This document shows positions 14,975-52,682 of a stretch of DNA of 64,000 bases, one piece after another. The position numbers and the translations under genes were made by a program. The notes under the pieces are model-generated. The model saw only the letters and a program-made list of their open reading frames with translations. It did no database searches and had not been told where the DNA came from. The stretch is taken from positions 25,930 through 89,929 of the forward strand of contig JADQBQ010000004.1 in assembly GCA_016278505.1 (NCBI GenBank), in the 5' to 3' direction. Each line of letters starts with the position of its first letter. The first letter of the stretch is position 1. The stretch is from Clostridiales bacterium. GTDB lineage: Bacteria; Bacillota; Desulfotomaculia; Desulfotomaculales; VENG01.

Positions 14975-15059
14975 GTCGGAGTGGCGGAATCGGCAGACGC
15001 GCACGTTTGAGGGGCGTGTGGGGTAACTCGTGGGGGTTCAAGTCCCCCCTCCGACACCA
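14975..15059 (+). tRNA. tRNA-Leu (GAG); island integration target
   Basis: GTCGGAG...CTCCGAC acceptor pairing, long variable arm, anticodon loop TTGAGGG, encoded CCA. Confidence 0.95.
15006..15059 (+). repeat. attL-like direct repeat (54 bp, 3' part of tRNA-Leu)
   Basis: tttgaggggcgtgtggggtaactcgtgggggttcaagtcccccctccgacacca, identical to 52629-52682. Confidence 0.92.
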
Positions 15060-15068
15060 AACACAGAT

Positions 15069-15116
15069 AAAATGGGCTTTTTGAGGGATTACCAAAAAAG
15101 CCCATTTTTTATTTTT
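15069..15116 (+). terminator. intrinsic terminator after tRNA-Leu (supplied by the inserted element)
   Basis: aaaatgggcttttt...aaaaaagcccattttttattttt. Confidence 0.8.
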
Positions 15117-15190
15117 AAAAACAAGACGTATGCATGTCCACCAAAAAGTAGTGTGCGAAGGTTTTATCTAACCGCACACTACTTTTTTTT

Positions 15191-16165
15191 ATGGGAGGTA
15201 TGAAAATGGCACGGCGTAAGGGACTTAAGACATCACACAGCAGTACACTACCTAAAAATGGAGTAAAAGAAATTGATTTTACGGAAGCCGTCGATATCTT
15301 TTTGACCGGCATGCTGCTTAAGGGTCTAGCTCCCCGCACAAGGGAGTGGCATAAAGAAAACCTGTCAGCCCTTAAAAACTTTTTGACCCAGGAAGGAAAG
15401 AATACCGCACCGGTGTCTATGACAGAAAGTATTTTAAAGCAAAATTTTATCCTGCCCATGATTAAGCACGGATTCAAAATTAATACCATCAATGGCAGAA
15501 TCAGAACCTGCCGCAGCTTTTACACGTACCTTCTTAAAGAGGGATATATCTTGTCCAATCCTGCCAAGCGCCTCACCAAGCTCAAGCAGGACAAGCCAAT
15601 TATTGAAACCTTTACCAAAAATCAGGTTAACAAACTTTTATCAGTCATTAATAGGCAAACATTTGTTGGCTTTCGGGATTACGTTATCATTTTACTCTTT
15701 TTGGAAACAGGCATTCGGGTATCCGAGGCCGCAAGAATAAAAGTTGAACATATTTTGTTTGAGGAGCAGATGATTAGGATACATGGCAAGGGGGCTAAGG
15801 GGCGTATTGTCCCCTTTCAAACTAAACTAAAGGGGCTGATGTATAAATACCTAAAAGAGCGCAGTGAAGTTGACCATCCCTACCTTTTTATTAACCGGGA
15901 TGAAAAACCACTTAAGAAAAGAACGATTCAAGATAGGTTCTCCATCTACGGTAAGAAGGCAAATCTTAAGGGGGTTCGCTGCTCCCCTCACACCATGCGC
16001 CACACCATGGCCAAGTTTTACATTATGGCCGGGGGAGATGTTTTTAGCCTGCAAAAAATTTTAGGCCACGCCTCTCTTGACATGGTTCGAAGGTATGTCG
16101 AGCTTTTTGGCAGCGAGATAAAAGAACAGCACAAAAAATATAGTCCCATTAAAGATTTTACATAA
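15191..16165 (+). CDS. tyrosine recombinase/integrase
   Basis: LETGIRVSEAARI, SPHTMRHTMAKFYI, LGHASLDMVRRYV (R..HxxR..Y); probable start ATG 15206 after GGGAGGT. Confidence 0.92.
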   Translation: MGGMKMARRKGLKTSHSSTLPKNGVKEIDFTEAVDIFLTGMLLKGLAPRTREWHKENLSALKNFLTQEGKNTAPVSMTESILKQNFILPMIKHGFKINTINGRIRTCRSFYTYLLKEGYILSNPAKRLTKLKQDKPIIETFTKNQVNKLLSVINRQTFVGFRDYVIILLFLETGIRVSEAARIKVEHILFEEQMIRIHGKGAKGRIVPFQTKLKGLMYKYLKERSEVDHPYLFINRDEKPLKKRTIQDRFSIYGKKANLKGVRCSPHTMRHTMAKFYIMAGGDVFSLQKILGHASLDMVRRYVELFGSEIKEQHKKYSPIKDFT

Positions 16166-16183
16166 AAAAAGCGCCTGTTGGCG

Positions 16184-17158
16184 CTAAAAACTGCTTAAAG
16201 GGCTGTATTTATCATGCTGCTTTTTAACTTCGCCGCCCCAGAGGTTTACGTAGATTTTCACTGTGTCCATATTCTTATGGCGAAGTATCTTCTGCAGTGA
16301 AAAGGCATCCCCCCCGCCCAGAATATAGTATTTAGCGAAGGTATGGCGCAAGGTGTGGGGCGAGACGCGTACGTCAAAGATATTAGCCTTTTTGCCGTAC
16401 TTTTTAAACTGGTCCTGAATAGTGCTGCGGCTAAGGGCTGTCCCACGGATACTGGTGAATAAATGATCAGAATCATTAGGCCTTAGGTCTCTATAGTAAA
16501 GATATTTTTCTAGTATTCTTGCACACTTGCCCGAAAAAGGGACATGACCGCTTGAGCCTTTACCTGAGACCTTGATCATCCCCTCTTTTAAATCAACATC
16601 TTGAATTCGCAAGCCGCAAAGCTCGGCCAATCGGATTCCAGTGTCCAACAGCAAAAGGAAGATCGTATAATCACGAAAGCCGGTAAAGGTAGTCCTGTCA
16701 GGCTGCTCTAAGAGCCTTGCCACCTGATCTTTTGTAAAGGCCTGGATGGGCTCCCCTTTACCCCTCACCTTTTTTAAAGTCGAAGCAAAATTCGTCTCAA
16801 TATAATCTTCCTGGGACAGAAAGGTTATGTATTTACGCAGAGTTTTAATTCTCCCATTGATCGTATTTGGCTTATAGTTCTTACTTACCATGTATAAAAT
16901 GAGATTCTGCTTAATCATATCTTTGGTGAGCTTAGCTGGAGTTTTAATGATAATACCCTGCTTTTTAAGTATTTTTAACATGGCGGCCATGTTCTCCATA
17001 TGAAAGGCTATCGTACGTTGGCCTAAGTTTTCTGCCTGCATATCTGTAACAAACGTTTTTAAAGACTCTTTAATGGTAGTTTTGCGCACCAGCTTTGGTT
17101 CCATAGGAAGAACATTTGATGGCCTCTTTTTATAATTCTCTCTTTCTAATCCTAACAT
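16184..17158 (-). CDS. tyrosine recombinase/integrase (paralogue, convergent)
   Basis: LDTGIRLAELCGL, SPHTLRHTFAKYYILGGGDAFSLQKILRHKNMDTVKIYV. Confidence 0.92.
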   Translation of the reverse strand: MLGLERENYKKRPSNVLPMEPKLVRKTTIKESLKTFVTDMQAENLGQRTIAFHMENMAAMLKILKKQGIIIKTPAKLTKDMIKQNLILYMVSKNYKPNTINGRIKTLRKYITFLSQEDYIETNFASTLKKVRGKGEPIQAFTKDQVARLLEQPDRTTFTGFRDYTIFLLLLDTGIRLAELCGLRIQDVDLKEGMIKVSGKGSSGHVPFSGKCARILEKYLYYRDLRPNDSDHLFTSIRGTALSRSTIQDQFKKYGKKANIFDVRVSPHTLRHTFAKYYILGGGDAFSLQKILRHKNMDTVKIYVNLWGGEVKKQHDKYSPLSSF

Positions 17159-17379: not shown

Positions 17380-17502
17380 ATGATGAAATATGATGAATTA
17401 TTATTTCCAGAAGAGTATCATGAAGCGAACTGGTTTGAAATCTTAGTAACTAAAGCAATCGAAGTCCTTCTCGAAGAATTAGATGCGGAGGTGGAAGAAT
17501 GA
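17380..17502 (+). CDS. small acidic protein (40 aa) translationally coupled to the serine recombinase
   Basis: MMKYDELLFPEEYHEANWFEILVTKAIEVLLEELDAEVEE*, upstream gggagg, ATGA overlap with ATG at 17499; not in ORF track. Confidence 0.5.
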   Translation: MMKYDELLFPEEYHEANWFEILVTKAIEVLLEELDAEVEE

Positions 17503-18987
17503 ATGTCAACAAAGAAGTCAGTGCTTATATAAGGGCCTCTACCAATCAGCAGCAGCTGACCTTGGCATTTCAAAAGAGAAAAAACATAGAGGCCGCCCAA
17601 AACCTCGGGATCATATTAAAGGAAGAAAACATTTTCACTGATGCCGGGGTATCCGGCTTTAAAATCCCAATGGAGCAGCGAAAAAACCTGCAAGCAATGC
17701 TTAAAAAAGCAAAAAAAGGTGAGGTCAGCCATCTAATCGTTTTCAAACGGGACAGGTTAACGCGAAGGGCAAGGGAATATTTGAAAATAGCCCATTCCCT
17801 TCAAGAATATGGGGTACAAATAATTTTCTCTGACCCCGCTGAACATCCCTTTATTACTGATTATGGGTGGATGGTTGAATGCGTTTTTGCTGCTTTGCTG
17901 CAAAAAGAATGTGAAGGGATTAGGGAAAAAGTAATTCTCGGCCTGAAAACATCGCACAGCATGGGGCTCTGGACGGGTGGTCAGCCGGGATTTGGATTTC
18001 AATATGATAAAAATAGCAAGAAACTAAATGTCATTAGGGAAGAATCGGCAGCAGTTAAGCAAATAATTCATCTACTTGCAAATGGCAAAAGCCCCCAAGA
18101 AATTGCCCAACTTTTAAATAAACAAAACACTCTTTGGGCCGCCCGCAACGGCAAAACCGGCAAATGGACAACTGCCAAGATAAAACAAATCGGCAGTAAC
18201 CCCCTATTTTTAGGCATTTCAGAGCGGTTTGGCGAAAAGGTCCACTTAAAAGACCAAAAACCAATCGTGGATATGCAAATCTGGCAGCAAGCTCAAGAAA
18301 CCCTTGAAAAGTATGCGCCAGCTTCCAGATCAAAAAATAGTAAGAAAAAGGCAGCTTTTATTAGAAGGCCTTGTGTGCTGTGCGCAAAATTATGAAACCA
18401 CCTTCAGAGTAAGGAAGTTAGGCAAAAAATACAAATATTGTTGTCCCGATAGTAATTGCACCCAAAACTGTCCTAATAAACGAATAGACATCAATGAATT
18501 GGAATCTATGGTATTTTCTCACTGCAGCCACTGGTTTAGCAGCCTTGACAATAGGGTATTAGAAAAGAAGACCGGATTAGTATTACAAAACCGTCTGCGC
18601 GAGATAGAAACCAAAATCAACACCCTTAACAGTAAAAAGGAAAGGTTAGCAAAAGAAATAAGCCGCCACTCTGACAATTTCTGCAGGGAAACCCATGAAT
18701 TCAAAAAAAGGCAGCTCGAGAGTAAAATTATGAAACTTCATGAGCAAAAAACAGAAATAGGGAGAAAGATGAGTCACTTTAATAGCGCACAAAGTGAATT
18801 ATACGCATTGGGGAAACGGCAGGATAAAGTTTTGTCCATCCTTAAAGACTGGGAGAAAAGTTTTGCAAGCCTAAATTTTAACGAGCAGAAGAGTGTTTAT
18901 AACCAAATAATTAAGTTTATTTTGATTCACCCTTTTAGGATTGAAGCTTTAACCAATGATACAGAAATTCTGGGAGTTGCAGGCTAA
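17499..18987 (+). pseudogene. large serine recombinase, split by a frameshift near 18335-18360 (ORFs 17499-18395 and 18304-18987)
   Basis: ORF1 has resolvase and recombinase domains (AYIRASTNQQQLTLAFQKR, HLIVFKRDRLTRRAREYLKI); ORF2 continues with the zinc-ribbon/coiled-coil tail (LLLEGLVCCAQNY...CPDSNCTQNCPNKRIDINELE). Confidence 0.75.
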
Positions 18988-19009: not shown

Positions 19010-20641
19010 TTGCCAATTTCAGACGCTTTAAAACCACAAACTCCCGTGGCCATTTACAACAGGTACTCGTCACACAAGCAGGAATCAGGCATGAGCATCG
19101 AAATGCAGATGCAGGCCGCGCAAAAAATAATTACAGAATATGAACTCCGTCTAACTAATACCTACCAAGACGAAAAAAAACCTGGGTATAAAACGCATTT
19201 TACCAGGCGTAAAGGCATGATGGAACTACTAAAGGATGCGCGAAAAGGCGTATTTAAAGCGGTTATCACACTATGCAGCGACAGGGTTTCCAGGGATGTA
19301 GTCCAGTTCATTTCAATTATAGAGATATTGGACCAATGTGGAATTCAGCTAATCTACTCCATGCCGGGGATGACCCAGCCCTTTGAGCAGGATATTGTAA
19401 GCGAAATGATTTCCTATGCCAACGCCATGCACGAGTCAGAAAGAACCAGCGCCAGGGTACGCGAAGCAATGAAAAACAAAGTTGATAAAGGAGAGTGGGT
19501 GGGCGGCAGCATACCCTTTGGTTACCAGTTAAACATTAAAACAGGCGCAATTGAAATTTTGCCTTTAGCGGCAGAAATCGTAAAAGATGTTTATCAAAAA
19601 TATATCCGGGGCTTTAGTTTTCAGAGTATAGCTCACTCTTTAGCCCCAGGTCATTCACCAACCGGAAGATGGACCAGATGGCAAATTGAAGGGATCATAA
19701 AAAACCCGTTTTATGCCGGATACCTAACTTGGAATAAAAGATTAGACCGGTCCAACAGCGCTTGGCGTAACCCCGCCGACTGGATGATGGTTGAGAGCAA
19801 GTATATTCCTAAAATCATAGATAAAAAGACCTGGGACATTGCCCAGGGAGTGCTTTTGAGAAAGAAAACCAACCGCATATCATCCAAACATTATTCGTCT
19901 CCCAACATACTAAAGGGACTTTTGTACTGCTCATGCGGACAAATGCTACTGCCAAAGGATAACCGGTCAAAGGATAACCGGTCAAAAAGCATTTTAAAAA
20001 GCGGCACAGAAAAGGTCTATGGAAATCGTATTTACAAATGCCCTAAAAAATGTTTACGGCTTCCGGCAGATACAATAGAAGAATTTGTCATTAACGATAT
20101 TAAAGAAATAATTGCCACTCTCCCAGAGGACGAACTATTATCTAAAATTGAGGAAAAAGTTAAATCAGAGATATCCGATGTTATTTTAGATATTGAAATG
20201 CTAGAAGAGCAGTTGGTGCACCTGAAAAATAAGGCCGCAAAATTTAAGGCTTTATCGGAAGAGGCAAAGTTAGAGCAAGACGATAGTGACCAGGAAAGCA
20301 AACTAGCTTGCTACAACGACATCGTAATGAATACCTCAAAAGAGATTCAACAAGTTAAAAGCATAATGCAAGAAAACAAAATATTTTTACGGCAAAAAGA
20401 ATCTCTTTTGACATTAAAAGCTGGATGGCTGGAGAAACTGGTAAGCATCCCAATGTTATGGGATCAAATGAGTATAGAGGAAAAGAAAGTGGTTACTGAA
20501 GAGCTTTACAGGAAAATTGTAGTTACTCCTAATAAAGAGGTCATTTTAGATAACAAAATCTTTCCACAGAAAAGTAAAAAAAGAAACTTGTTTGAAGGAA
20601 AGCTATTGTGGCAGTATGACAGTTTTATTCACACTAACTAA
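19010..20641 (+). CDS. large serine recombinase (site-specific integrase)
   Basis: VAIYNRYSSHKQESGMSIEMQ, TLCSDRVSRDVVQFISIIE, GSIPFGYQLN, LKGLLYCSCGQMLLPK, coiled-coil C-terminus; TTG start. Confidence 0.9.
   Translation: MPISDALKPQTPVAIYNRYSSHKQESGMSIEMQMQAAQKIITEYELRLTNTYQDEKKPGYKTHFTRRKGMMELLKDARKGVFKAVITLCSDRVSRDVVQFISIIEILDQCGIQLIYSMPGMTQPFEQDIVSEMISYANAMHESERTSARVREAMKNKVDKGEWVGGSIPFGYQLNIKTGAIEILPLAAEIVKDVYQKYIRGFSFQSIAHSLAPGHSPTGRWTRWQIEGIIKNPFYAGYLTWNKRLDRSNSAWRNPADWMMVESKYIPKIIDKKTWDIAQGVLLRKKTNRISSKHYSSPNILKGLLYCSCGQMLLPKDNRSKDNRSKSILKSGTEKVYGNRIYKCPKKCLRLPADTIEEFVINDIKEIIATLPEDELLSKIEEKVKSEISDVILDIEMLEEQLVHLKNKAAKFKALSEEAKLEQDDSDQESKLACYNDIVMNTSKEIQQVKSIMQENKIFLRQKESLLTLKAGWLEKLVSIPMLWDQMSIEEKKVVTEELYRKIVVTPNKEVILDNKIFPQKSKKRNLFEGKLLWQYDSFIHTN
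19954..19983 (+). repeat. 15-bp in-frame tandem duplication
   Basis: aaaggataaccggtc x2, encoding KDNRS KDNRS in the zinc-ribbon region of the serine recombinase. Confidence 0.8.
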
Positions 20642-21136: not shown

Positions 21137-21991
21137 TCAATACCCTATAAAAAACATATCAACTGTATCTTGATAATTTGAAAATGAATAAAGACTGTGC
21201 ATATTCCCTTCGCCTTTCTCCATTTCATTGGCCCACATTCGTAACGTTCCATCAAAGAACCAAACGGGAACTTCCGCTTTGGGAAGGCCCGATTCTGTAT
21301 TTACCTTGGATTCGGAAAACTCTTTTGCACATAGAACATGAAAGGAATGGAAATAATCTATTAAAAATATTTGTTGCTTTTCTCTAAACCAACTTTTCTG
21401 TTGGTAGTCTTTCAATCGGTTCGTATAAAAGTTACCAAAGTAAAATTCTTTTGCTTCTGTTAACAACTTTGCAACCTCTTTATAACGTTCTTCCTTACTC
21501 ATTTGGGCAACTTCTTTCAAAGTATAATTCTCTCTTTGGTATTCATACAAAGCGTCCCAATTAACATCCCTATCAAAGAACCAAACCAAATAAGCTTGGA
21601 ATTTCGGTTCTTTCTTAATAAGCTCGTCCCAACTAATTGTTCCAAACCCCGGAACCGGCAACATATTGTTATTTGACCAAATTCGAAGTCTTTCCGGCCT
21701 ATACCCTTTTCCCGGCGTCCAATCTTTAACCGGCGGCTTGTGCTTGTCCTTGTAATTCCCGCTTAATACGTTTTCTTGTTTTTCCCTTTCTTCCGCCAAT
21801 GCTTTTCTTGACGCCGAATCTTTACTCTTAGTCGGTTTGCAATTGACCGCAAGTGGAGATGGACTAACTTCGTTCCTTTGTTGATTCTTTAGTTGGTTGG
21901 CATTTGTATCGACGTTCGTATTATCACCGGTATGGCCACAACCGCTAACCAACAAGGCCGCCAAAGAAACGGTCGCGATAACTCTTTTCAA
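21137..21991 (-). CDS. putative lipoprotein, 284 aa
   Basis: MKRVIATVSLAALLVSGCG lipobox; rest unrecognised. Confidence 0.75.
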   Translation of the reverse strand: MKRVIATVSLAALLVSGCGHTGDNTNVDTNANQLKNQQRNEVSPSPLAVNCKPTKSKDSASRKALAEEREKQENVLSGNYKDKHKPPVKDWTPGKGYRPERLRIWSNNNMLPVPGFGTISWDELIKKEPKFQAYLVWFFDRDVNWDALYEYQRENYTLKEVAQMSKEERYKEVAKLLTEAKEFYFGNFYTNRLKDYQQKSWFREKQQIFLIDYFHSFHVLCAKEFSESKVNTESGLPKAEVPVWFFDGTLRMWANEMEKGEGNMHSLYSFSNYQDTVDMFFIGY

Positions 21992-22061: not shown

Positions 22062-22112
22062 GAGGGGCGTGTGGCTAAAACTGTGCGGGTTCAAGTCCCG
22101 CCTCCGACACCA
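22062..22112 (+). repeat. divergent tRNA-Leu 3'-end fragment (internal att-like site)
   Basis: gaggggcgtgtggctaaaactgtgcgggttcaagtcccgcctccgacacca aligns to the tRNA-Leu 3' half with substitutions. Confidence 0.85.
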
Positions 22113-22156
22113 CTTGAAATGTAGCGTGGGGCATTAGTTCCACGCTACATTTCAAG
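22113..22156. repeat. perfect 17-bp inverted repeat between two att-like fragments
   Basis: cttgaaatgtagcgtgg / ggcattagtt / ccacgctacatttcaag. Confidence 0.85.
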
Positions 22157-22226
22157 TCCCCCCTCCGACACCAGAAACCGACAAAAATGCAGGTTTGAGG
22201 CTGAATGTTGATAATAACACGTTTTT
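22151..22226 (+). repeat. second internal tRNA-Leu 3'-end fragment plus copy of the native downstream flank
   Basis: ttcaagtcccccctccgacaccagaaaccgacaaaaatgcaggtttgaggctgaatgttgataataacacgtt parallels 52660-52732 with a few mismatches. Confidence 0.85.
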
Positions 22227-22685: not shown

Positions 22686-23216
22686 TCAAGGATTATTATA
22701 ATATTCTTCTAATAAATCCGCAAACTCAAGGTTTAGATAGATAAAAGTAATTGGTTCGTTTTCTATGTTAGAAAATTCATCTTCTATCATTAGTTTAAAT
22801 TGAAATTTACTTCTATACCAATCAACTACTTCAGTTAAAGCTGCTCCAACAATATATTTCTCATTAAACATATATGCTAAATCAATTATATGACTAACTA
22901 CTAATTGACCAAAACCCAACCCTTGTTTTGATTCTAAAATTGCAATTCTAGCAATTTCCAAACAATCTTCTGTATGGATTTCATCATCTGTTTCAAAAGC
23001 AACCTCTTGATGTCTTAATGTAAAGTATCCAATAATTTCATCCTCAACGAATACTAAAGTAGTACTGGAATCTTTTTCTAAGTGACTTAAACGGGCCTCT
23101 GTTCTTAAAAATGATTCCATGCTACTGTTTTTACATCGAAAATTTTTATATGTGTCATAATTACAATCGATAATAGGGTAAAAACTTAAAGGCTGTTCTC
23201 CTATTTGGGTTTGCAT
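22686..23216 (-). CDS. GNAT family N-acetyltransferase
   Basis: TLVFVEDEIIGYFTLRHQEV, EIARIAILESKQGLGFGQLVVSHII. Confidence 0.8.
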   Translation of the reverse strand: MQTQIGEQPLSFYPIIDCNYDTYKNFRCKNSSMESFLRTEARLSHLEKDSSTTLVFVEDEIIGYFTLRHQEVAFETDDEIHTEDCLEIARIAILESKQGLGFGQLVVSHIIDLAYMFNEKYIVGAALTEVVDWYRSKFQFKLMIEDEFSNIENEPITFIYLNLEFADLLEEYYNNP

Positions 23217-23380
23217 ATATAAAAACCTTTACTTCTCCTACTAACTTTTCGGGTGGGTGGATCATTTTTAAAATTATGGCTTAACTTCTCTCTCAACTCT
23301 TCTATTTTCTTTTTTTCCTCCAAAAATCTTTCCGCATCCCTTCCTTTTACGGTTGGGAACTCTCTCAAACTGACTGCCAT
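23201..23380 (-). CDS. small basic protein upstream of and overlapping the GNAT gene
   Basis: From internal ATG at 23380: MAVSLREFPTVKGRDAERFLEEKKKIEELREKLSHNFKNDPPTRKVSRRSKGFYICKPK; track ORF runs to 23548. Confidence 0.55.
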   Translation of the reverse strand: MAVSLREFPTVKGRDAERFLEEKKKIEELREKLSHNFKNDPPTRKVSRRSKGFYICKPK

Positions 23381-23677
23381 TCTTCCACCCCCTGGTTTAT
23401 GATCTTTTTTAGAATCTTTTTCATTTGTATTCTTAGATTTGTTCTTGTCCAAATTATACACCTCCACTGGGCACTCATTAACAAATACTATGCCCACTAC
23501 CCAGGTGCATAACCACAATTTTACAGAAATCACATACAGTATTGGCAAATTTAGTTATTTCAAAGTGTAGCATGTAACATGTGTGACAGTCAAGACAATA
23601 TTTGCAAGCGTAAAGTTTGTTTAGGAATCAAAATAACCTCCCCTGTAAAAAGCGAAGGCTCTTTTAGTGGGGTACTA

Positions 23678-26600
23678 CTATACTGGAATCCATTGTTGTA
23701 ATTGAGTAAAATATAGCCCGGTTTCATGGACTTTTTCGCCAACAATCTCTTCCCAGTATTCTTTATACATCTGCACCTGAGGGGTGTAGTATTCCACCAG
23801 CTCTGCCAGCATGTCATTATCTTCCACAGTATCCGTCTTGTAGTCCACCAGCACCCAGCCGTCCTCTTCTAGGAAAACCAGGTCAATGGCGCCGGAAACT
23901 ATCGTTTCGGTAGTAAAACCGTATTCGCCGGTTTCCACCTTCACAGAAAGGGGCACTTCTACAAAGCGCTTTTCACTTTTTAGCATCCTCTTCCAGAGAC
24001 TTGACTTTAAAATTCCATTGACCAGGTTTAAAACCTCCGTTTTCTCCCCGGCATCCCTTTCTTCTTCGGCAAGGATGTTTTCCACGAAAAGCTCCAGGTT
24101 TGAGGGAACCTTTTCAGCGCAGGCTTCTAAAACCCTGTGCAGTACCCGGCCCCAGGACTGCCCGCGGCCCGTCCGTTGCCTGGCAGGGCCTCCACTCTTC
24201 CCTTTTACCAGTTCCGTAACAGCAGCAACATTATAACTGGGTTCATTCATGGGATTCCGCGGTCCCAGGAACCCACCCTTTGCTTCGTCCAAGTCCTCCA
24301 GGCTAATCTCGATACTTTCCTCACCGGTTGGGCTTGAATCGGTGCCTGAAACATCTTCTAACTCTGAAACACCCGCGAAATGACCATTGAAAGGATGCCA
24401 TGCGCTCAAGTCGGGTTTGCCCGGGTAGGTGCTAACAACCAGGAGGTTTTTGGCCCTTGTGGCTGCAACATAGATTAAGCGTGTTTCCTCGGCATCCAGG
24501 TATTGCTGTTCTATCTGGCAATACCGGTCCCAAGTCACGGGTTGCCCCAGGGTCTCTTTGTTAAATGACTTTTGCTTTTGGATAACGAAGTACCCCTAGG
24601 AGTGCTATCCCCCACTCTGTTAATGTGCATGGTTGGTAGCCACTTTACATTTTTGCCGGGGTTGGCCAGAAACACCACCGGCGCCTCCAAGCCCTTTGCC
24701 TTATGCAGGTTCATCAGTCTTACCGCGTTATCTTCCCAGGGCGTAATGTTGATTTCCTCTTCCACGCCGGATTCCATAAGGAGTGTGAGGTATTCCACCA
24801 GCGAGTAAAATGAAGTTATACCACTGCGTTCGGCGGCGGCAATAAACTCCTGGAATTGCAGCAGATGCCCGCTGCAGCTCTTGCCCAGTTCTCCTGTAAG
24901 CGCGTGAGAAATTATTCCCAGCTCACGCACAATATTCTGCATAGCAGCACTGGCCGGGAGAGTAATTGTCCATTCCCTGAAGTTTCGGAACATGGTGAAG
25001 GCCCACTCAAAAATCTCTTTGTCATCATCATCTAAGCCAGAGGGTACGTCGCTATATATGTTAAAACGGCCGCCTGCTTGTTTAAAGAGCCATAACTGAT
25101 TGTCACTGATACCGAAAAGGCTTCCCCTTAGGGCAGCAACCAGCAGCACCGGGTCATCAGGGTCAATAATGACCCTTAATATTTTAATCACTTCCGCCAT
25201 TTCGGCAGAATTGGAAAATCCGTCACCGCCGGCAATTCTAAAAGGTATACCCTGCTCTTCTAAAGCCCTTGCATACAGATCCATGTGTGCCTTGTAGCGC
25301 AGCAAAATCATGAAGTCTTCCGGACGGGGATTATCAGTTAGCCCTGCCTCCAATTCACTGTCGGTGCGGCACAAAGAAATACCGCCGTCAACGGCCCAGC
25401 GAATCCAGCGGGCAATACGTCCGGCATCTATAAATGCGATCTGATCCCTTCTATTAGACTTAATTTTAGGTATGGTAATGGTCTTCACACCATACGCTTT
25501 ACCGTTAATGTTTTGCCTCACGGTATCCATGCTGGTAAAGGCAGCCTGGTACGAGTCGGCCTTTTCGGGCAAAAGTTCCTTGAATACCGGGTTTACCCAG
25601 TCCCCAATGTCCTGCAGCGAGCGGAAGTTAGTGGTCAGGTAAAGGATTTTGCCGCCGCTGTTTTCAATAAGCCGCTTTACCTCGTTGTATGTATCTATGT
25701 CGGCGCGCCGGAAACGGTAAATGGCCTGCTTGGGGTCACCCACAACAAATAAAGAGCCGGGGTAAGGGGTCAGCTTACGCCAGTCCCTTTCGTCGATTTC
25801 CTGTCCGGTCAAATAAAACATAATCTGGGCTTGGATGGGGTCTGTATCCTGGAACTCATCCACCAAAAGGTGAGAATACCTTGCCCGAAAGTACCGTCGG
25901 ACTTCCGGGTTTTCCCTTAATAGAGCAGCAGCATGCATTAAAAGATCCTGGTAATTGAGCTTTGACTGCTCCATCCGGCGCTGCCCGTAAAGCTCAACCG
26001 CGGGCAGTACAAAGTCCACCAGCTGTTTATGCCTGTGCTCGTGCCACACCTCCAGGGTAGGAACAATGTAAGTTTCCCGGAAACCATCAAAAGCTTTCTT
26101 GATGGTTTTGGCATCCTCCGGTGACAACCACCGCTTTTGTGTAATACCCCCGGACTTGTTAAGCACCCCCAGCAACCGCAGCAGCATTAAGTCATTTTCA
26201 AGATCAAAGACACCACGCCACCTCAAGGCCCGCCTCAATATTTTCTGCAGGCCGTCCCAACCACCTCCGGGCACCGTCTTGGGCAGCACGTCTTTAGCGG
26301 AATCCAAAAGGTTAATTAATTCCTTGCGCACCGGCTCTAAATCAGGTTTAGGGGCATATTCCCGCACAATTTCTACATCGGGGTAAGTGGCTAATACCTT
26401 ATAGCAATCTTGTAAGTCTCCGGCTTCCACATCAATCTCTGCCAGCCCTTCAATTACCTCAGGTCTATCTGCCTGCATGCGCACCAGGTAATCGTCCCAG
26501 GCCCTTTCCCGCAGCAGCGCGTCTTCCAAATCTTCCAGCTCCACAAAATCAGGATCCAGTCCGGCCTCAATGGGCCGCTCCCGGAGAAGGGCAGCACAGA

Positions 26601-36445: not shown

Positions 36446-36470
36446 TATAATTAAGCCTCCTATTAACTAT

Positions 36471-39166: not shown

Positions 39167-39435
39167 CTTAAGAAAACCTACAAATGTGGCCTTTATAGAT
39201 ACCAACAGCACTGTGGTTTGTAAGATGTATCTACCACGGTGCTGTATTTAATCACCGTTACGGCACACATTTAACCTACTTTCCGCTTTTCAGCGCTTCA
39301 TAAGGATTGAACCCAAGGCTAACCGGTCGGAAAAAATCGAAAACTACAAGGATTTTATGAGATTAAATTGAAATTTTAGTTATGTTACATTAATTTTGAC
39401 AATAAATGAAAAAACGAATATGAATATGCGGGGGT

Positions 39436-40926: not shown

Positions 40927-41028
40927 CTTACTTACTTAAACTCGCACACAAAGAAAACAACACTGCCCTTCCGTCAATTTTCTCTTTGAGATAAAGTTCA
41001 TAATATGAATCGCTCGAATATCATAGTT

Positions 41029-42661: not shown

Positions 42662-42664
42662 TCT

Positions 42665-43114: not shown

Positions 43115-44931
43115 TAGCTTGCAATCCTCTCCCTTTCAATATTTTGCAATATGGATTGGATTTCAGATAACTGTTCCTCAATCCTATTGATGTTTTCTTC
43201 ATTTCCTTCATACTCTTTTAATGAAAATGCTTCTTTATATTCTCTAAAGAAGCTCTCTACTTGCTCAAGGTTATGCCTCTTCAATTCTAACAGGTCATTA
43301 TCGACTGCTTTAATGGATTTTTCTTCCCAAAGCGATACAGCTTTCCCAACCTGTTTGATAAGTTCTGACTGCCATAGCGCTACTTCATATAAGTAAAAGC
43401 CTGCTTCAACGATAACCGCTGCTGCGGCACCAATCGCCCTCGTTGATGTGGCACCTATTCGACTTAAAAATCTAGCAAGTTGGTTATGAGTCTCCCTAGA
43501 AAAAGTCTTCCCAACTAAGTCACCAGCCTTTTTAAGACCTTTTTTTGCAGCATTTGCAACACCAGCACCTGCTCCGCCAACCCCACCATATTGGCGGAAA
43601 AAGGCTTGAAGTGCTTGGTCAGCAAAACGTTGGGCAACCCTATTACTAACATTTAAAACCAGTTGCTCAAAAGCCCTATTTTCGATATGGATTTTTCTTT
43701 CCAACTTCTGGACAGCGGCATTTAACATCGAATCAATTTCTTCATTTAATTGATCTAACTCTCTTTCAATATAGGCCCTTATATTCTTTGTTTCTTTCTT
43801 AGCAAGCATAGGCATGAGATGTGTTTGGACATACCCTGCACATTCCTGTTGATGAGTCCAACGGTTAGATGATGTAATTTCTGATTGAATGCAAGCAACA
43901 ATTTCATCTGCACTGCTTTTAAACATTTTCTTAGTTGTTGTATTTACTCTTTCAAACGTACTTTCTATTTTAGTTTCCACAACCTGCTTTTTAGCTAGAA
44001 ATTCTGCTGATGTTTCTTCAAGTAATTTCCTCTCTTCATCGGTAACCAACTGTTCCACTTTCCGTTTCTCTAAGTACCCCTGAACATCAAATAGTAAGCT
44101 TTTTTGAAACCCTAAAAGGGAATGATGGAGGGCCATTTTTCTTTTTTCAGAAGAGATTTCATTTTTAATGCTCTCCCACAACTCCTCGGCTGCAGGCAAA
44201 GGCGGTTCACCATCCATGGTAGAGACTTCTCCATGCACAAGATAAACGGGAATCTCTTGATGAAGTAAGTCCTGAACGTGATTTATAATTTCCTTTACTC
44301 TTCGGTCATTTGTCGCTTTATTTTCGGGAGTCCGATTAATAACTAGATAAAATGTCATATCTTCTCTAAACAGCTCTTCAATTAACCCAATGAACTCTGC
44401 ATCACTTTCGTTTACACCTACCCGATAACTGATAACATATATAATAATATCGCTATTCGGCATAAAGGACTTGATAATTTTTTCATGATTTTCATGAATA
44501 GAACCATATCCTGGTGTGTCAAAGAAACGTAGACCTTTCAATCCTTTTGGATAAGATGGAGTTAGTAGCCTTAGCCGTTCATACTGTTCTGGCAAGTTTT
44601 TGCTAAATTGCCCGAACTGTTCTTTAGTTAACGTCTCCAATTTAGCATTTTTAGTAACGGCAAAGTATTCAAAGTTTTTTATAGCTGGATCATCCATGAT
44701 TTCAACAACAGCCCCTGTCGTCGGGTTCGGACCAGTACGAAGGATGTTACTTCCTAAAAGACCATTAAGAATACTGGATTTTCCACTGCTTGTTTCACCA
44801 AGCAGCGTAACAAAGCTCTCTGGATATTCAATGCGTTCTTGCAAAAAATCAAATAGCGTTCTAAAGTCCTGACACGCAACTTTATCAACTACTGTCTTGA
44901 TAGATTTCATATTACTGACTAATTGGTTCAT
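43114..44931 (-). CDS. dynamin-like GTPase 3
   Basis: G1 LLGETSSGKSSILNGLLG, G2 NPTTG, G3 FFDTPGYGS, weak G4 NRTPE; C-terminal Gly/Ala-rich hydrophobic segment. Confidence 0.88.
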   Translation of the reverse strand: MNQLVSNMKSIKTVVDKVACQDFRTLFDFLQERIEYPESFVTLLGETSSGKSSILNGLLGSNILRTGPNPTTGAVVEIMDDPAIKNFEYFAVTKNAKLETLTKEQFGQFSKNLPEQYERLRLLTPSYPKGLKGLRFFDTPGYGSIHENHEKIIKSFMPNSDIIIYVISYRVGVNESDAEFIGLIEELFREDMTFYLVINRTPENKATNDRRVKEIINHVQDLLHQEIPVYLVHGEVSTMDGEPPLPAAEELWESIKNEISSEKRKMALHHSLLGFQKSLLFDVQGYLEKRKVEQLVTDEERKLLEETSAEFLAKKQVVETKIESTFERVNTTTKKMFKSSADEIVACIQSEITSSNRWTHQQECAGYVQTHLMPMLAKKETKNIRAYIERELDQLNEEIDSMLNAAVQKLERKIHIENRAFEQLVLNVSNRVAQRFADQALQAFFRQYGGVGGAGAGVANAAKKGLKKAGDLVGKTFSRETHNQLARFLSRIGATSTRAIGAAAAVIVEAGFYLYEVALWQSELIKQVGKAVSLWEEKSIKAVDNDLLELKRHNLEQVESFFREYKEAFSLKEYEGNEENINRIEEQLSEIQSILQNIERERIAS

Positions 44932-44933
44932 TT

Positions 44934-46748
44934 TTAAATAGCCACCTCTATCTTTTCCAAATAGCTTAAATCGTCTTCAATCTTCTGACGCCGTTCCCCA
45001 ATCTCTTCCTCAGAGAGTTTTATGTTCCGGCGGTGCTCTTCCCTATCAGCTTCTAGTTGTTTCTCTTGTGCTGCTATGAACTGCTCTAAACTTTTATTTA
45101 TACTGGTAAAATAATCGTCAACATGGTCATTGATTGAATTAAGTAAACTATCTTTAAACTCTTCGATTGGTCCTTCTAGATCTGACATTGTAGCTTCCAT
45201 TCGCGTATCCTCAACATATTCCTTTGTTTTCTTTCCGATAAAGCTTGAAAACAAACTAATGCCAATGCCTACCACACCACCTACGACAGTACCAACTGGC
45301 CCCCCAATCGCTGTGCCAATCGCTAAACCAGCATAGATTCCTGTTATTGAACCGCCAATGCCAATGGTTGGTGCCAACCCCTTTTCGTACTTAAATGCTG
45401 ATTCCTTGTAAAAATCAGCAAGACCGTTGTATGTGTCATCCATATTTCTTACTTCCAGGTCTCCGATTTCAACTTCCATGAGCTTTTTCACTTCAAATAA
45501 CTTGTCATTTAATCCTTCAATGGCATCTAAGGCAAACATCTGCTCATTTTCTCGAAGAACCCTGGTTAGAAGATCACCATCAACAACTTTATTACCCGTC
45601 ACCCTCCTCATTTCATTACGTAGGTTTTCTGCTTGTTTCTTACTTTGCACATGTGCGTAGTTTCGCAAATCCGTTTCGAATCGTTGAATACTCAGCCTAA
45701 TTTGTGAAATTTTATCCCTGTTAGAATTAATAATATCCTCAAACTTTCTTTCTTGTTCACGGTACTTTTTACGAAGTGTTTTTCTATCTAACTGGCTGTC
45801 TCGCAATTGTTCTTCAAGCTTGCTTTTGATTCTTCCAACCAATAGTCGAATATCATCTGAAAACTTTTCAAAAATTGTAGTCCGCCATGTTTTCGCGATT
45901 TCTGAAATGTAATTCCTCAACTCCGGAATTCCAGACTCTTCCATAACGACTTCATCATTTTGAAGACAACTATTTAGGGCTTTATATACATTTACAATCC
46001 GGATGTCAATATTTTCGTTTGTTTTGTGGTTTCTTGCAATTTCCGTTAACACATCCTTGTTATGCTTTAAACCCTCATTTACCTCTTTCCAACTTTCATC
46101 TGTCCATTGGTTTTGTATAAACCATGCCTTTGTCAATTTTGGCCATGCGGTGCTTAAAAATACTCGCTCACTTCTGGTGATTGGAGGAACCGTTCTCAAC
46201 AAAAATATTGCTGCAGACAGCTTTTCAATATAATCCATAGTTGTTTTTACATTTCCCTGAGTAAGACTAGATACGCCTGGCAAATCAACAAATACCAGAC
46301 CTTCTTTTAATATGGAATCGTTTTTAAAAATTACAATATGAGATACGTTTTTCTGATTAGCATAATTGTAATAGTTATGTACGTATTGCTCAATTTCCTT
46401 TGCTTCATACAAGATATTCGGTTCTTTTTCATCTAACAAATATACGCAAATCTGGCCATCAATATCTTTACCATATCGAACTTCGACAGGGATACAAGTT
46501 GTTTCGTCAGCATCAACGGGCAAAATCAAGTCATCCATTAATAATGCATTAAGGAGACTACTTTTGCCTGAGCCTTGAACCCCTAATACAGGTATTAAAA
46601 ACTCATCTTTGCTTATGTTATTAAGCTTGTGAGATATGTAATTTTTATACGTCTCCTTTCCTCCATCTCCAGTTAAAATCGGCAAATACCGGTCTGCTAA
46701 TTCCAAAAACCTTTCTTCTTCTATTATTGACTTAATCTTTACTGTCAC
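44934..46748 (-). CDS. dynamin-like GTPase 2
   Basis: G1 VLGVQGSGKSSLLNALL, G2 DETTC, G3 FVDLPGVSS, G4-like NQWTDE; glycine-rich hydrophobic hairpin. Confidence 0.88.
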   Translation of the reverse strand: MTVKIKSIIEEERFLELADRYLPILTGDGGKETYKNYISHKLNNISKDEFLIPVLGVQGSGKSSLLNALLMDDLILPVDADETTCIPVEVRYGKDIDGQICVYLLDEKEPNILYEAKEIEQYVHNYYNYANQKNVSHIVIFKNDSILKEGLVFVDLPGVSSLTQGNVKTTMDYIEKLSAAIFLLRTVPPITRSERVFLSTAWPKLTKAWFIQNQWTDESWKEVNEGLKHNKDVLTEIARNHKTNENIDIRIVNVYKALNSCLQNDEVVMEESGIPELRNYISEIAKTWRTTIFEKFSDDIRLLVGRIKSKLEEQLRDSQLDRKTLRKKYREQERKFEDIINSNRDKISQIRLSIQRFETDLRNYAHVQSKKQAENLRNEMRRVTGNKVVDGDLLTRVLRENEQMFALDAIEGLNDKLFEVKKLMEVEIGDLEVRNMDDTYNGLADFYKESAFKYEKGLAPTIGIGGSITGIYAGLAIGTAIGGPVGTVVGGVVGIGISLFSSFIGKKTKEYVEDTRMEATMSDLEGPIEEFKDSLLNSINDHVDDYFTSINKSLEQFIAAQEKQLEADREEHRRNIKLSEEEIGERRQKIEDDLSYLEKIEVAI

Positions 46749-47488
46749 TATTTGTTAGACCTCCCTCTAAACCACTTTTTGAAAAATGGTTGATTAGCCC
46801 ATTTTATTTCCCTCTCAACTTCTTCAACCCTACTTGAAATATTATTCAGTTCTTTTTCAACACGACTCAAAACCTTGGTTTCTATTTGATCAAGGCATCT
46901 CCCAACTTTGTCCTCAATTGTCTCAAACACGTACTGTACACGAGTTTCATGATCATTTTGTTTTGTTTTAATTTCGTTTAATTGTTCATAAACCTCTATT
47001 TTGATTCTATTGCTACTATCCTTAAACTCTTTACTTTCTTTTTGAACTGATTGGTGAAGTATACTTGTTGTTTCCACAATCGTTGTAATTTGTTTATTTA
47101 AGTTCTTACCAAGTTCCTCGATATTTTCAATTTTTCTAGTAACCAAACTCAGAAGTTCTCTTTTTTCGGCCAGCAATACTTCTTTGACCGCATCAATTTG
47201 TTTTTCACTATCTTTTTTGATTGAATTAACTAGTATATTAAGGTTATCTTCTAAAGTGTCCGTTAAATCCCCCATATCTTCTTCAAGCCGGGTAGTCTCC
47301 TTCGCAATATTTTTTTCTATATCTCTAATATAATCATGCAGCTGGGAAGACATTGCTTGCACCATTCTGTTATTGTCACTCTTAAAACTCTCAAAACTTT
47401 GTTCAACTCCTTTTGACATCCTACTTTCAACTAATTCCAGAATTGATTTCGTTGTCTCATCGACTTCAATCATTACAGATTTGCTCAT
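46748..47488 (-). CDS. coiled-coil protein between dynamin-like genes
   Basis: Long helical heptads; basic C-terminus FFKKWFRGRSNK; overlaps both neighbours. Confidence 0.75.
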   Translation of the reverse strand: MSKSVMIEVDETTKSILELVESRMSKGVEQSFESFKSDNNRMVQAMSSQLHDYIRDIEKNIAKETTRLEEDMGDLTDTLEDNLNILVNSIKKDSEKQIDAVKEVLLAEKRELLSLVTRKIENIEELGKNLNKQITTIVETTSILHQSVQKESKEFKDSSNRIKIEVYEQLNEIKTKQNDHETRVQYVFETIEDKVGRCLDQIETKVLSRVEKELNNISSRVEEVEREIKWANQPFFKKWFRGRSNK

Positions 47489-50138
47489 TAAAAATTCCTC
47501 CTCTGCAGTCTATTAGTGCTTTAATAAATGAACGAATATGATCCTCCTCACCAGGAATAGCTGTTAAATATTGATAATTAACTTTTATATTATGTAGGAA
47601 TTCTTGAGCATCTGCGATTATGGTTTTGGGTTCGTTCAGTTGCAAACTCGCCATGGAGTACAGTGGGTTTTTATCGTTCACAAGGACCTTTCCTTTTTTT
47701 AATAAATTAAGTTCACAAATTAGTTCATACAAAACACGAACTGCTTCATCTAAATTGCGACCTTCTTTGAATTCCTGGATTGATTGAATAACGCAGTTTA
47801 TTGGTATTTTATGACAGTTTGGCATTTCATACAGCAAACTCTTAATAAACCTTTTTCTAGCTTGTCCACTTTGTATCAGATGAATTAGTACATAAATATT
47901 ATAATTACCATTTTGTAATAGCAACTTTAGCTCCTTAAACACCTGGGGATGGAGCATCTGTTCATTCACGAACAAGAGTTTATTATTTTTTTTGGGGATA
48001 ACCATTCCGTTATTTTCGAGCTTCTTCTCTTCATCTGTACTGAAGGTTATATTTAAATATCGTTCGGAATAGGACAATAGAGAATGGGTATCCCATCCCC
48101 AGATCAAAGTACGAGTTAAGTTCTTTAGATATTTCCTGTCCTCCCTCTGGACCAACTCCCAACACTTCTTAAAGTGAAGGTTTAGGAAGTGATAACTTAG
48201 TTTAAAAAGGTAAAAGGTTTCTTCTTGAATGCTAACTTGCGAATAATCCTTCGTTGTCTCTTTTGCCTGTGTTTTTTTCTGTGACTTCACCGAAGTAATT
48301 CTTTTAAATTCCTCTTCCCCTTTCACCGTCCTAACGACTCTTTTTATATCTTCCAAGACAGCAACCATTTCTTGCTGTTCCAATAAATTACTGCGTTTTT
48401 GTTCAAGTTCCATACTCTGTCGTTGCACTTCTTCTTTCGCCTTCGTCAAAAATTTACCTAAACGATTTTGCCATTGATCAATAAAACCATAGAAGGAATG
48501 AGATAATTTTTGTTGATAGGAATTTAAACCTTTTGATATAGCTTGAAAATCAATAACCTCAACATCCTTAGTTTGATACTCATAACCCCAATCCTCATCT
48601 AGAAAATCACCAAAAAATCTGGCTATTTTATTACCTAAACCACTTTTTTTTCTTCGATGTTCTTCTTGGATAATTTTCTTTTTTACGGAAAAGTAGTGCT
48701 GGGTGCGAACGGATTTAGGTAAAATATCATTTTCATAATCCTTTGACTGAAGATTTAACAATTCTAAAAAATCACTTACTTTTCCATTCAGGTCCCGTAT
48801 ATTTGCAATAAATGCTTTTTCTATTGTTTTAGCTTCATCTCTTATATAGTTTAGCAATTCTGTGCATGAATCAGTGTCTTCGTTATCTAACATTTCTATT
48901 TTGTTTATTGTTGCTGATGTCTCTTTTTCAAGCTGCACCAGTTTTTCCATGAGAATCTCTCTTGCAGACACTGTTTTATCATTTAGCTGCTTCTGTTTAT
49001 CATGTAGGTATTGCAACTCTCTTTCCTGTTCACTGGTAATTTTCTCAAGAGTTTCCACATCACCGACAATTTTTTCTTCACGTTCTTGGATGCTCGTTAA
49101 ATGTCTTAAAATCTGATTTGTCCGTTCTACATATAACTTTGGCCTAATTATCTTTTCATGCTCTTTCATATTGTCAACTAAAATGTTAAACTTGGATTGT
49201 CTTATTTTCTGACAATCACTCTCTCTCCTACCGTCAACAGCTCTTTTCGCAGATAACTGAACAATATTAACTATCTCATTCAGATTGGGATCAATGCTTT
49301 TTAATATCCTTTCAATTCTCTTAATGTGTTCCCTTGCCACTTGGTCTTTCGTCTTTAATACCTCTCCACCTTTGCCAATTTTAGGTTCCACGGAATCAAG
49401 CATATTTTGGATAATGATTAACGGTTTCTGATGCTCATAAATCGTATGTAATATTTCCCTTGTAATTGAATCGGAGTTTGCTTTTAAAGTGACCACATAC
49501 ATACATAAATCTACAGTTGGTAATAGCATCTCCATCGTGATCTGTTCATGCTTTTCAAGTCCGTGGGCGTCTAATCCAGGGCTATCAATAATTTGTATCT
49601 TCTCAGGAAAAAGAAAGTTGGGTGATTTAACATTAATTATTTTTACTTTATATTTGTTGTTTTCGTTAAAGCGCTCGTCTCCATATATTTGAATTTTCTC
49701 TCTCAATTGATTCTTCGGTATGTTGACAAAGGTTCCATTTTCAAAATAAACTACAGCCTCGACATATTTGCCCTTAGAGCAGGTAATTAATGTACCTGAA
49801 GTAGGTCTAACAGCCGTCGGTAGGATGTCATCTCCTAATATGGCATTTAATAACGTCGATTTACCGCTACTGGTTACCCCTACTAACCCCACTCGAATGT
49901 AATTTTTTTCCCACTGGGACATTCGGTCATTCAACCAATCAATATTGCTTTTGAAATAACCCTTAATGGATTCGTTTTTCGAAAAGACCTTAATTAGTAC
50001 TTGTGCTATTTGTTTCTCGTTTTTAACCTTGTTCACTTTTATTAACCACCTAGTTTTAACTCTTGTAATATTCATATTAACAGTGCCTAAAGTTGTTAAG
50101 TTTATTTTACCGGTTACACTTCTGGCCGATCTTTGCAA
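47466..50138 (-). CDS. dynamin-like GTPase 1 (large)
   Basis: G1 LVGVTSSGKSTLLNAILG, G2 RPTSG, G3 IIDSPGLDAHG, G4-like NMLD; true start probably internal to the track ORF. Confidence 0.88.
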   Translation of the reverse strand: MQRSARSVTGKINLTTLGTVNMNITRVKTRWLIKVNKVKNEKQIAQVLIKVFSKNESIKGYFKSNIDWLNDRMSQWEKNYIRVGLVGVTSSGKSTLLNAILGDDILPTAVRPTSGTLITCSKGKYVEAVVYFENGTFVNIPKNQLREKIQIYGDERFNENNKYKVKIINVKSPNFLFPEKIQIIDSPGLDAHGLEKHEQITMEMLLPTVDLCMYVVTLKANSDSITREILHTIYEHQKPLIIIQNMLDSVEPKIGKGGEVLKTKDQVAREHIKRIERILKSIDPNLNEIVNIVQLSAKRAVDGRRESDCQKIRQSKFNILVDNMKEHEKIIRPKLYVERTNQILRHLTSIQEREEKIVGDVETLEKITSEQERELQYLHDKQKQLNDKTVSAREILMEKLVQLEKETSATINKIEMLDNEDTDSCTELLNYIRDEAKTIEKAFIANIRDLNGKVSDFLELLNLQSKDYENDILPKSVRTQHYFSVKKKIIQEEHRRKKSGLGNKIARFFGDFLDEDWGYEYQTKDVEVIDFQAISKGLNSYQQKLSHSFYGFIDQWQNRLGKFLTKAKEEVQRQSMELEQKRSNLLEQQEMVAVLEDIKRVVRTVKGEEEFKRITSVKSQKKTQAKETTKDYSQVSIQEETFYLFKLSYHFLNLHFKKCWELVQREDRKYLKNLTRTLIWGWDTHSLLSYSERYLNITFSTDEEKKLENNGMVIPKKNNKLLFVNEQMLHPQVFKELKLLLQNGNYNIYVLIHLIQSGQARKRFIKSLLYEMPNCHKIPINCVIQSIQEFKEGRNLDEAVRVLYELICELNLLKKGKVLVNDKNPLYSMASLQLNEPKTIIADAQEFLHNIKVNYQYLTAIPGEEDHIRSFIKALIDCRGGIFNEQICND

Positions 50139-50505
50139 AAGGCCATTAAATCTTTGTATTCAGGTCCCTCCGGCTAGTATCGCCCAATGCAAAAAATTGG
50201 CTGTTTTATTGTGAAGGTGGCGCCATAACAACTTCGGCAAAGGCCAAGTCAAATTTTTAGCTTGTTACTCCACTGTCAAGGGTTTGGTCACTTGGTTATT
50301 AACTATCTCCTCTTCTACAATTGAACTGATTTTTGTCAGTAAAATAATTTCCTTATTTCAATTATCACACTCACCTGTGGCATATGCTAAAAAGCATCAT
50401 AACGGAATTAGTAAGGTACCGTTTAAGATCCCCCTCCCAAGACATAGGGTATTAATTTTTATCTAGGCAAATGCCTCAACAAGGTCAACAACTTGTGTTA
50501 TACCC

Positions 50506-51492
50506 CTATTGATATAGTTCCATCATTTCACAAATAGTTTGTTTCATTTCTTCACGAAATTCCGGGGGTGAAATTACTTCTAGATACTGGGCCTGGCTAA
50601 GTAACCACATCTTAACACCCCGACCAAATACTTCTGCTTCTATGACCGAAATATCCCCTTCATAATCTATAACGTGTGCCGTAGGAAGACGATCCAGAAC
50701 TGCTTCCAAGGATTTCCCCCAGAACTTGAACCTAACAGTTAATACGCGCCCTGTTTGCATAAACTGAACGCGTCTGCGTAATTCTCCGTCTTTATATTTC
50801 TCAATTACAGGGTTTGACTCAGAGACACGAAAATGTTCGTCTAAAATCATGTAATTTTGTATATGATCCAGCCTATAAATGGCAGGAAATTCATAGTCAA
50901 AGCCATGAATAAATGCAATTAGGTAAAAGTAAAACTCTGAAAATACTATTCCTTGGGGCTCAAGAACACGTTTAACAATGCTGTTTGAGCCAACCTTCAT
51001 GTAATCAATTTCAATTCTTTTATGCCGATTTATCGCTAAGCTCAGGTGCCAGATGGTTTGTGAAAGTGGTTTGCCATATCGGGTGGGGTTATAGTGGAAA
51101 CGCTCGTGAAGAATAACCTCTTTGACATGTTTGCGCTCCTCAGGAGCACATTGTAAAATCAACTTATCTAGAAGACTTTCCATCTCATATTTTGTTAACG
51201 CCCGGCTCTCCAAGAGAACTTTTGCCGTAAGAAGTACTTCTTGACTGGTTAGCCAAATATGCTCGTCCCGATACAATACATAACCGCATTTTTTCTTGTC
51301 ATATTCAATGAGACTATCGATGGAATAATGGTTAGCCAGGAAATTCCGCAAGTCTTCAATGTCGCGCTGTATTGTTTTTTCACTGACGACGAATTGTGTA
51401 GCATAACGTTTCTTATTAACTACCTTGCCCTTGTGTAAATCCTCATAAATTGCCAATAGCCGTGAAATCCTAGATTCATTCATTTCATCCAC
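50506..51492 (-). CDS. HTH-WYL domain transcriptional regulator
   Basis: VNKKRYATQFVVSEKTIQRDIEDLRNFL HTH and LEPQGIVFSEFYFYLIAFIHGFDYEFPAIYRLDHIQNY WYL-like region. Confidence 0.88.
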   Translation of the reverse strand: MDEMNESRISRLLAIYEDLHKGKVVNKKRYATQFVVSEKTIQRDIEDLRNFLANHYSIDSLIEYDKKKCGYVLYRDEHIWLTSQEVLLTAKVLLESRALTKYEMESLLDKLILQCAPEERKHVKEVILHERFHYNPTRYGKPLSQTIWHLSLAINRHKRIEIDYMKVGSNSIVKRVLEPQGIVFSEFYFYLIAFIHGFDYEFPAIYRLDHIQNYMILDEHFRVSESNPVIEKYKDGELRRRVQFMQTGRVLTVRFKFWGKSLEAVLDRLPTAHVIDYEGDISVIEAEVFGRGVKMWLLSQAQYLEVISPPEFREEMKQTICEMMELYQ

Positions 51493-51548
51493 CCGCTTAT
51501 CATAAATACCTTTTATTTGCGTTTTTGCGCTTAAATTCTATAATTCTG

Positions 51549-51773
51549 TTAATTATTCTCAATTAAATTATTTTTTCCTTTAGCAGATATTGTCGAAATT
51601 TGAGATTTACAACTTCCTTCTTGCGTTAAACAGAAATTATCTTCAAAGAGATCATCCCCAGGTAATGGGTTACCACAGTAAGGACAATTTTTATCATTCA
51701 ACTGACTAAAAGGGGCAGCGGATGCACTCCATTTTTTACAAAAAGTACAACAACTCCAATAAGCCATCTCCAT
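51549..51773 (-). CDS. small zinc-ribbon-like protein
   Basis: CCTFCKKW...NCPYCGNPLPGDD cysteine pairs. Confidence 0.55.
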   Translation of the reverse strand: MEMAYWSCCTFCKKWSASAAPFSQLNDKNCPYCGNPLPGDDLFEDNFCLTQEGSCKSQISTISAKGKNNLIENN

Positions 51774-52628
51774 TTTCTCCCTTCACATATATAATTCTTA
51801 GTGCAATTCTAGTTAATGAAACGGACAATATATGTCCGTGTTCTTAAGCCGGGAGAAATTTTTTCCGGGGATCGCAAATTTATATTTAGATCTGGCTTTA
51901 CACAATCCAGTGAAAAACCGCTCCTGTGCCCCCTAAAATGATATTCACTTTGCGATAGAATAGCTTCCATCATTTCTGCACCTTCTTCCATGGATTACCC
52001 TTGAAGAAGGCTGGAGCAAGGTACTTTATGATTAAACATTTTAATTAACCACCTTACCTAGCTTTATGTCCACTACCCGTTCATCTTTATGCCCGTTGTT
52101 ATTTGCCACCGTTACCCCTCTTTAAGGTAAAAACTTTCCAGTTGGAATTCTTGATCGGTAGTGACTTCTGCCGCCTCCACTTATAACCTTTAGTTTAATT
52201 ACTTTACATTGCTTGTTAGATTACATTTTATAAAAAGATATGCCCATATATTGTCCACCCAAAATATCCATGTAAATTCTTATTCAATATATGTTGTCAT
52301 AAGGGGTATTTACGCAGCCATAGGAAACAGCAGATAGCACAATTAAACCATAAATTGTGAAAGTTAAGAAAAACCACGGAAATAAAAAGCCTACTGTCAT
52401 AAACAGTAGACACTCTAAGGTATATTTTTGTTTGGTCCGGGAAATAACTTTAGATGCACACTACTTTATCGGCATACGACTTCATGGTTTAGATGTATCG
52501 GATAAACGTGTTAATATATTCTAGGATGTATGCATCTAATACCAACATAAAAATTCAATAACCTTTGCTAATCCCTCAATTCTATTGAGTTTAAGCACCA
52601 TTTTTAATGTGAATAAACTACGCACCCA

Positions 52629-52682
52629 TTTGAGGGGCGTGTGGGGTAACTCGTGGGGGTTCAAGTCCCCCCTCCGACACCA
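52629..52682 (+). repeat. attR-like direct repeat (54 bp, tRNA-Leu 3' end)
   Basis: Exact copy of 15006-15059. Confidence 0.92.

Follow-up and report, generated by a model that had tools for sequence, protein, structure and literature searches.

The interval at 15006–52682 of the DNA stretch analysed here (the window, 64 kb in length) is probably a composite island that accreted within the 3′ half of a tRNA-Leu(GAG) gene, with outer ends that match one another and inner ends that are fossil junctions (Table 1). An earlier note had described the same interval as a 37.6-kb genomic island bounded by tRNA-Leu direct repeats; its outer boundaries stand, and two tRNA-Leu ends that lie inside the interval speak against a simple single insertion. 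That the island excises, and the order in which its parts accreted, we infer from sequence.

Table 1. Coordinates of the tRNA-Leu target, core copies, ends and genes of the island in the window.
Feature	Position	Strand	Basis or remarks
tRNA-Leu(GAG), target gene, intact	14975–15059	+	ARAGORN; 3′ part element-supplied
Left 54-bp core repeat, copy 1	15006–15059	+	
Element left end	15060–15190	+	Terminator hairpin 15069–15108; second hairpin 15145–15186; right-end motifs shared
Int1, Xer-like tyrosine recombinase, core-binding and catalytic domains	15191–16165	+	Pfam PF00589 4e-37
Int2, convergent paralogous tyrosine recombinase	16184–17158	−	Pfam 1.4e-35
Large serine recombinase, frameshift-split (17499–18395 / 18304–18987)	17499–18987	+	
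Large serine recombinase	19010–20641	+	Pfam Resolvase 2.3e-19, Recombinase 2e-18
Predicted lipoprotein, no family	21137–21991	−	
Internal core copy 2, foreign-type tRNA-Leu 3′ end, putative fossil att site	22063–22113	+	
Long perfect hairpin after copy 2	22114–22156	+	19-bp stem, z −9.4
Copy 3 and decayed 50-bp native-flank copy	22151–22223	+	92% to 52660–52732
GNAT acetyltransferase and small upstream gene, inferred toxin–antitoxin-like	22686–23548	−	PF00583 1.9e-6
AddA-like helicase-nuclease (frameshifted near 24538), AddB-like PD-(D/E)XK protein	23678–30031	−	
WYL-domain regulator 1	30153–31181	−	
VWA protein, DUF2357/PDDEXK_7 nuclease, McrB-like AAA+ ATPase (PDC-M26A), coiled-coil protein	31319–37571	−	
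Unknown protein, 255 aa (+); truncated UvrD-like helicase (+, 39436–40926); unknown protein, 310 aa (−)	38320–41961		
Eleos-like cluster: three dynamin-family GTPases, coiled-coil protein, two small proteins	42341–50138	−	Dynamin_N
WYL-domain regulator 2	50506–51492	−	
Element right end	52379–52628	+	Left-end motifs GCACACTACTTT at 52456, TAATCCCTCAA at 52569, GTATGCAT at 52528
Right 54-bp core repeat, copy 4	52629–52682	+	
Native flank with displaced tRNA terminator	52683–52750	+	Fold calculation

Direct comparison of the two outer repeats, which the earlier note had reported as an exact duplication of the tRNA 3′ end, finds 54 of 54 bp identical and a mismatch from the next base on both sides. 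The repeat begins in the anticodon loop of tRNA-Leu(GAG) and ends with the encoded CCA. An exact 54-mer pair within 64 kb is far beyond chance; this identity alone does not establish a single-step movement of the entire composite. Two further claims, that the right copy is followed by the displaced native tRNA terminator and that the tRNA now reads into one supplied by the insert, are upheld by a hairpin and T-run at about 52706–52742, 3′ of copy 4 (−28.6 kcal/mol for 52683–52750, z −5.95), and by a strong terminator that is now 10–50 bp downstream of tRNA-Leu(GAG) (15060–15115, z −5.1). Because the element would bring a copy of the tRNA 3′ end as well as a terminator, the tRNA is expected to stay functional.

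On the left, the gene order mutM-ytaF-coaE-SLT followed by tRNA-Leu(GAG) is kept across relatives of the order. The right flank (52683–54300), short dispersed repeats excepted, was not found in the 60 relatives searched. In the one genome of the same family (G001) the site is occupied by an insertion sequence and by what is left of another element, of the large serine recombinase type. Within the right flank, 54257–54298 is a palindromic dispersed repeat, CTCCCACTTTTAAAAGTGGGAG, that has several copies in the source genome and is also present in G014 and G036; it looks like an IS200/IS605-type end or a REP-like element.

The outer ends share short, arm-like repeats, the best left–right motif being the 12-mer GCACACTACTTT. 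The number of 8-mers in common with the left end is 10–11 at 52351–52451 and at most 6 elsewhere (about 1260 segments of 250 bp, covering the 64 kb), and in a stricter test the stretch before copy 2 had no word longer than 6 in common with the left end. Because the left end has these short repeats in common with the outer right end, and the inner junction does not share them, the outer ends are probably functional, and there is moderate evidence that they belong to one element. The shortness of the repeats, and recombinases that show no recognisable arm-binding domain, count against this reading.

The integrase genes adjoin the tRNA gene, as had been claimed, with Int1 starting 131 bp past it and Int2 convergent. 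For relatives of Int1, 113 genomes of the class were searched in full, with E ≤ 1e-60 taken as close and partner genes counted apart. Besides the source genome, ten had close relatives. At nine of the close loci an entire tRNA-Leu directly precedes the gene in the same direction (eight GAG and one CAG), two come after a tRNA-Leu 3′ end and one is cut by a contig edge; every close relative with readable upstream DNA directly follows a tRNA-Leu or a tRNA-Leu 3′ end. A second tRNA end is present at 3.6, 12 and 82 kb in G027, G013 and G025, respectively, and starts at the anticodon loop in each case; the sharing of words between left and right ends exceeds controls in G027 and G013, and not in G025. 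More distant relatives follow tRNA-Gly, Val, Lys, Cys, Arg or Pro, and in named genomes and viral contigs members of the wider family commonly lie directly downstream of tRNA genes, those of Bacilli among them. With the same integrase family, the tRNA-Leu site and direct repeats recurring in other families of the order, the earlier proposal of tRNA-targeted integration, here to tRNA-Leu, is well supported at the level of sequence.

A solo member of the integrase family lies just after a tRNA-Gly in the source genome (L080, G000:C14:65380-66264), possibly marking a second island. The twin-integrase element of G025 (L041 4085-5715) has genes that read, by eye, like ParB and ParA, which suggests that this 82-kb element is plasmid-like. 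In G030, a type I restriction system apparently comes after the twin-integrase locus, judging from a reading of the sequence.

Int1 and Int2 are 44% identical and lie tail to tail with a gap of 18 bp. Both keep the six catalytic residues R-K-H-R-H-Y and, by length and family matches, both are Xer-like, without a recognisable arm-binding domain; in a published survey, simple enzymes of this kind were carried by 27 phages and arm-binding ones by 410 (PMC8138268). Seven other genomes have the same tail-to-tail pair (G025, G079, G066, G030, G057, G098 and G002, of which G079 has a frameshifted partner, G066 is cut by a contig end and G002 has its pair at tRNA-Leu(CAG)), and a partner integrase was found in none of the seven relatives sited at other tRNAs. 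In a maximum-likelihood tree, Int1 of G030, G079, G066, G025 and G098 forms one clade (100/99), and Int2 of G030, G079, G025 and G098 forms one clade (98/98) that branches as the Int1 clade does. Int1 and Int2 distances agree across the seven pairs (Mantel r = 0.935, 3 of 5040 permutations), as they do when only the five pairs of GAG type are taken (r = 0.967, 4 of 120 permutations). Given the mirrored trees and agreeing distances, the pair appears to have been inherited together. The two enzymes may also act jointly. An origin of the pair by accretion of two independent integrases was rejected, given the recurring tail-to-tail spacing and the matching trees.

A limited literature search for a convergent integrase pair as a known layout returned nothing fitting. 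Tentatively, the pair might be a two-subunit integrase in which each subunit acts on one half of the asymmetric tRNA-Leu core, an XerC/XerD-like division of labour put to integration; this reading concerns an Xer-like pair that diverged together and is found in at least eight genomes of the class. If both enzymes were needed, the integrase would be unusual in consisting of two different subunits and in lacking an arm-binding domain. Beyond the class, there are possible convergent pairs at L110 and L250 (Paenibacillus mellifer; a viral contig after tRNA-Gln). Another two-recombinase layout, tandem overlapping pairs of the family on the same strand, is seen at L101, L103, L105, L107, L109 and L114, from Paenibacillus, Cohnella and metagenome-assembled genomes.

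The retention of all six catalytic residues in both tyrosine recombinases, together with the identity of the outer cores, makes it rather unlikely that the island is an immobile relic, with real ends, lost excision and genes kept for defence. What speaks for such a relic is that frameshifts, from either mutation or sequencing error, interrupt the AddA-like gene and one of the serine recombinases, and that relaxase, transfer and excisionase genes were not recognised among the open reading frames scanned.

The evidence for layering lies in two tRNA-Leu 3′ ends at about 22.1 kb. The first, copy 2, shares 84% identity with the host tRNA-Leu end, and its T-stem, GCGGG/CCCGC, is fully paired; the host type is GGGGG/CCCCC. 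Because the differences keep the stem paired, copy 2 has the appearance of a 3′ end from some other tRNA-Leu type rather than of a decayed copy. A search for its donor in the 113 genomes of the class gave no match at up to 3 mismatches, and an exact search with its last 42 nt found none in the genome and viral collections; only its last 30 nt recur, in tRNA-Leu ends from other families of the order. The hairpin that follows, which we propose to be the remains of a terminator from another element or host, runs into copy 3 at TTCAAG. The core of copy 3 (22151–22173) is identical to the host-type tRNA-Leu end at 23 of 23 positions, and the native-flank copy after it has now lost the terminator fold. 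No simple order of events fully explains this duplicated flank (22174–22223). With one inner end of foreign type and the other bearing a copy of the native flank, the interval holds at least two earlier junctions, and the presence of these old junctions inside it indicates that the island accreted in layers.

A different order of events, in-place sequential accretion, would make 22174–52628 an old, integrase-less, cis-mobilisable remnant beside which the 7.1-kb segment 15060–22113 arrived last and moves alone. The integrase module ends precisely where core copies 2 and 3 lie, the integrases adjoin the tRNA and no integrase was found among the open reading frames of 22174–52628, all as this scheme would have it; however, copy 2 is only 84% identical to copy 1, whereas copy 4 is identical, and the left-end motifs, which recur at the outer right end, are not seen ahead of copy 2, so that we regard the scheme as unlikely. 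A single simple island, in which chance or the capture of a meaningless tRNA fragment accounts for the pieces inside, suits the exact, long outer repeat and the one integrase module at one end but is highly improbable, because the paired alternative T-stem and the 50-bp native-flank extension in the inner pieces cannot be chance.

If the island is the layered composite that we favour, Int1, probably joined by Int2, its co-inherited convergent partner, would catalyse recombination between the tRNA gene and the anticodon-loop core of a circular element, and the element would supply its own tRNA 3′ end and terminator. The outer ends would be the matched ends of the present unit, and the two inner tRNA-Leu ends would represent fossil junctions between stacked elements. 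Lacking an integrase of its own, the right 30 kb would ride as cargo consisting of phage-defence-like operons from sources of differing G+C.

The G+C content is 0.50 at 24–30 kb versus 0.34–0.39 at 42–51 kb. PADLOC matches in the Eleos-like cluster are to LeoA (4e-19) and to LeoBC (2e-17 and 4e-11), with both types present together. WYL regulator 1 has a 68% identical relative in G029, 1.3 kb from a tRNA-Leu. The distribution of the cargo in the class is patchy: AddB-like genes occur in 10 and McrB-like genes in 9 other genomes, and the dynamins have only distant relatives. By its gene content, the cargo appears to be phage-defence-like, and the tRNA-Leu(GAG) site is a recurrent hotspot with such defence-like cargo in the class. 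Separately, a 27-bp stretch of the AddA-like gene (25506–25532) matches 26 of 27 bp, on a different strand, in a carbon-monoxide dehydrogenase gene outside the island (62485–62511); with up to 3 mismatches allowed, the genome has no further site.

As in other tRNA-integrated islands, there is a tRNA 3′-end direct repeat at both ends and there are intact integrase genes at one end; as in accretion arrays, which have at least three att cores, there are several cores, here four, and an integrase-less part lies between two of them. Other classes of element were considered and set aside. An integrative and conjugative or mobilisable element (ICE or IME) was rejected on the basis that no relaxase or conjugation genes were recognised among open reading frames scanned with Pfam and PHROGs. 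The same goes for a prophage, with no structural or packaging genes among the open reading frames scanned with Pfam and no convincing structural match for the ten proteins compared with PHROGs. GInt and RIT elements have a three-recombinase operon on one strand, whereas the two tyrosine recombinases here are convergent.

The kind of island is known; its history is layered, and its least ordinary feature is the uncommon, conserved integrase pair. A review of tandem ICE and IME accretion with cis-mobilisable remnants (CIMEs) discusses both orders of events (PMC5704250). Like those arrays, the island has several att cores and an integrase-bearing part beside an integrase-less part; unlike them, it has no recognised transfer genes or relaxase, and its inner cores are partly fused, with one of another tRNA type. 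Islands formed at tRNA genes by tyrosine integrases likewise have a repeat that starts in the anticodon loop and reaches the CCA end, an integrase directly after the tRNA and a restored tRNA, but here the recombinases are two convergent, co-inherited, simple (Xer-like) enzymes, whereas the integrases of most phages and ICEs have an arm-binding domain (PMC8138268). More than one tyrosine recombinase per element, together with cargo, is also a feature of GInts and recombinase-in-trio elements (PMC5385486, PMC8138268), although theirs form same-strand operons of three and the two genes here are tail to tail beside tRNA-Leu. The dynamin cluster resembles Eleos in its LeoA and LeoBC matches, and the PDC-M26A match and the DUF2357/PDDEXK_7 gene next to the McrB-like ATPase recall McrBC-type systems; similarity to both is low, the neighbouring genes are WYL, VWA and AddAB-like, and there are three dynamin-family proteins instead of the one or two of Eleos. 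Islands at tRNA genes are ordinary; in this one, a foreign-type inner core and a core with a copy of the native flank leave a record of stacking that can still be read.
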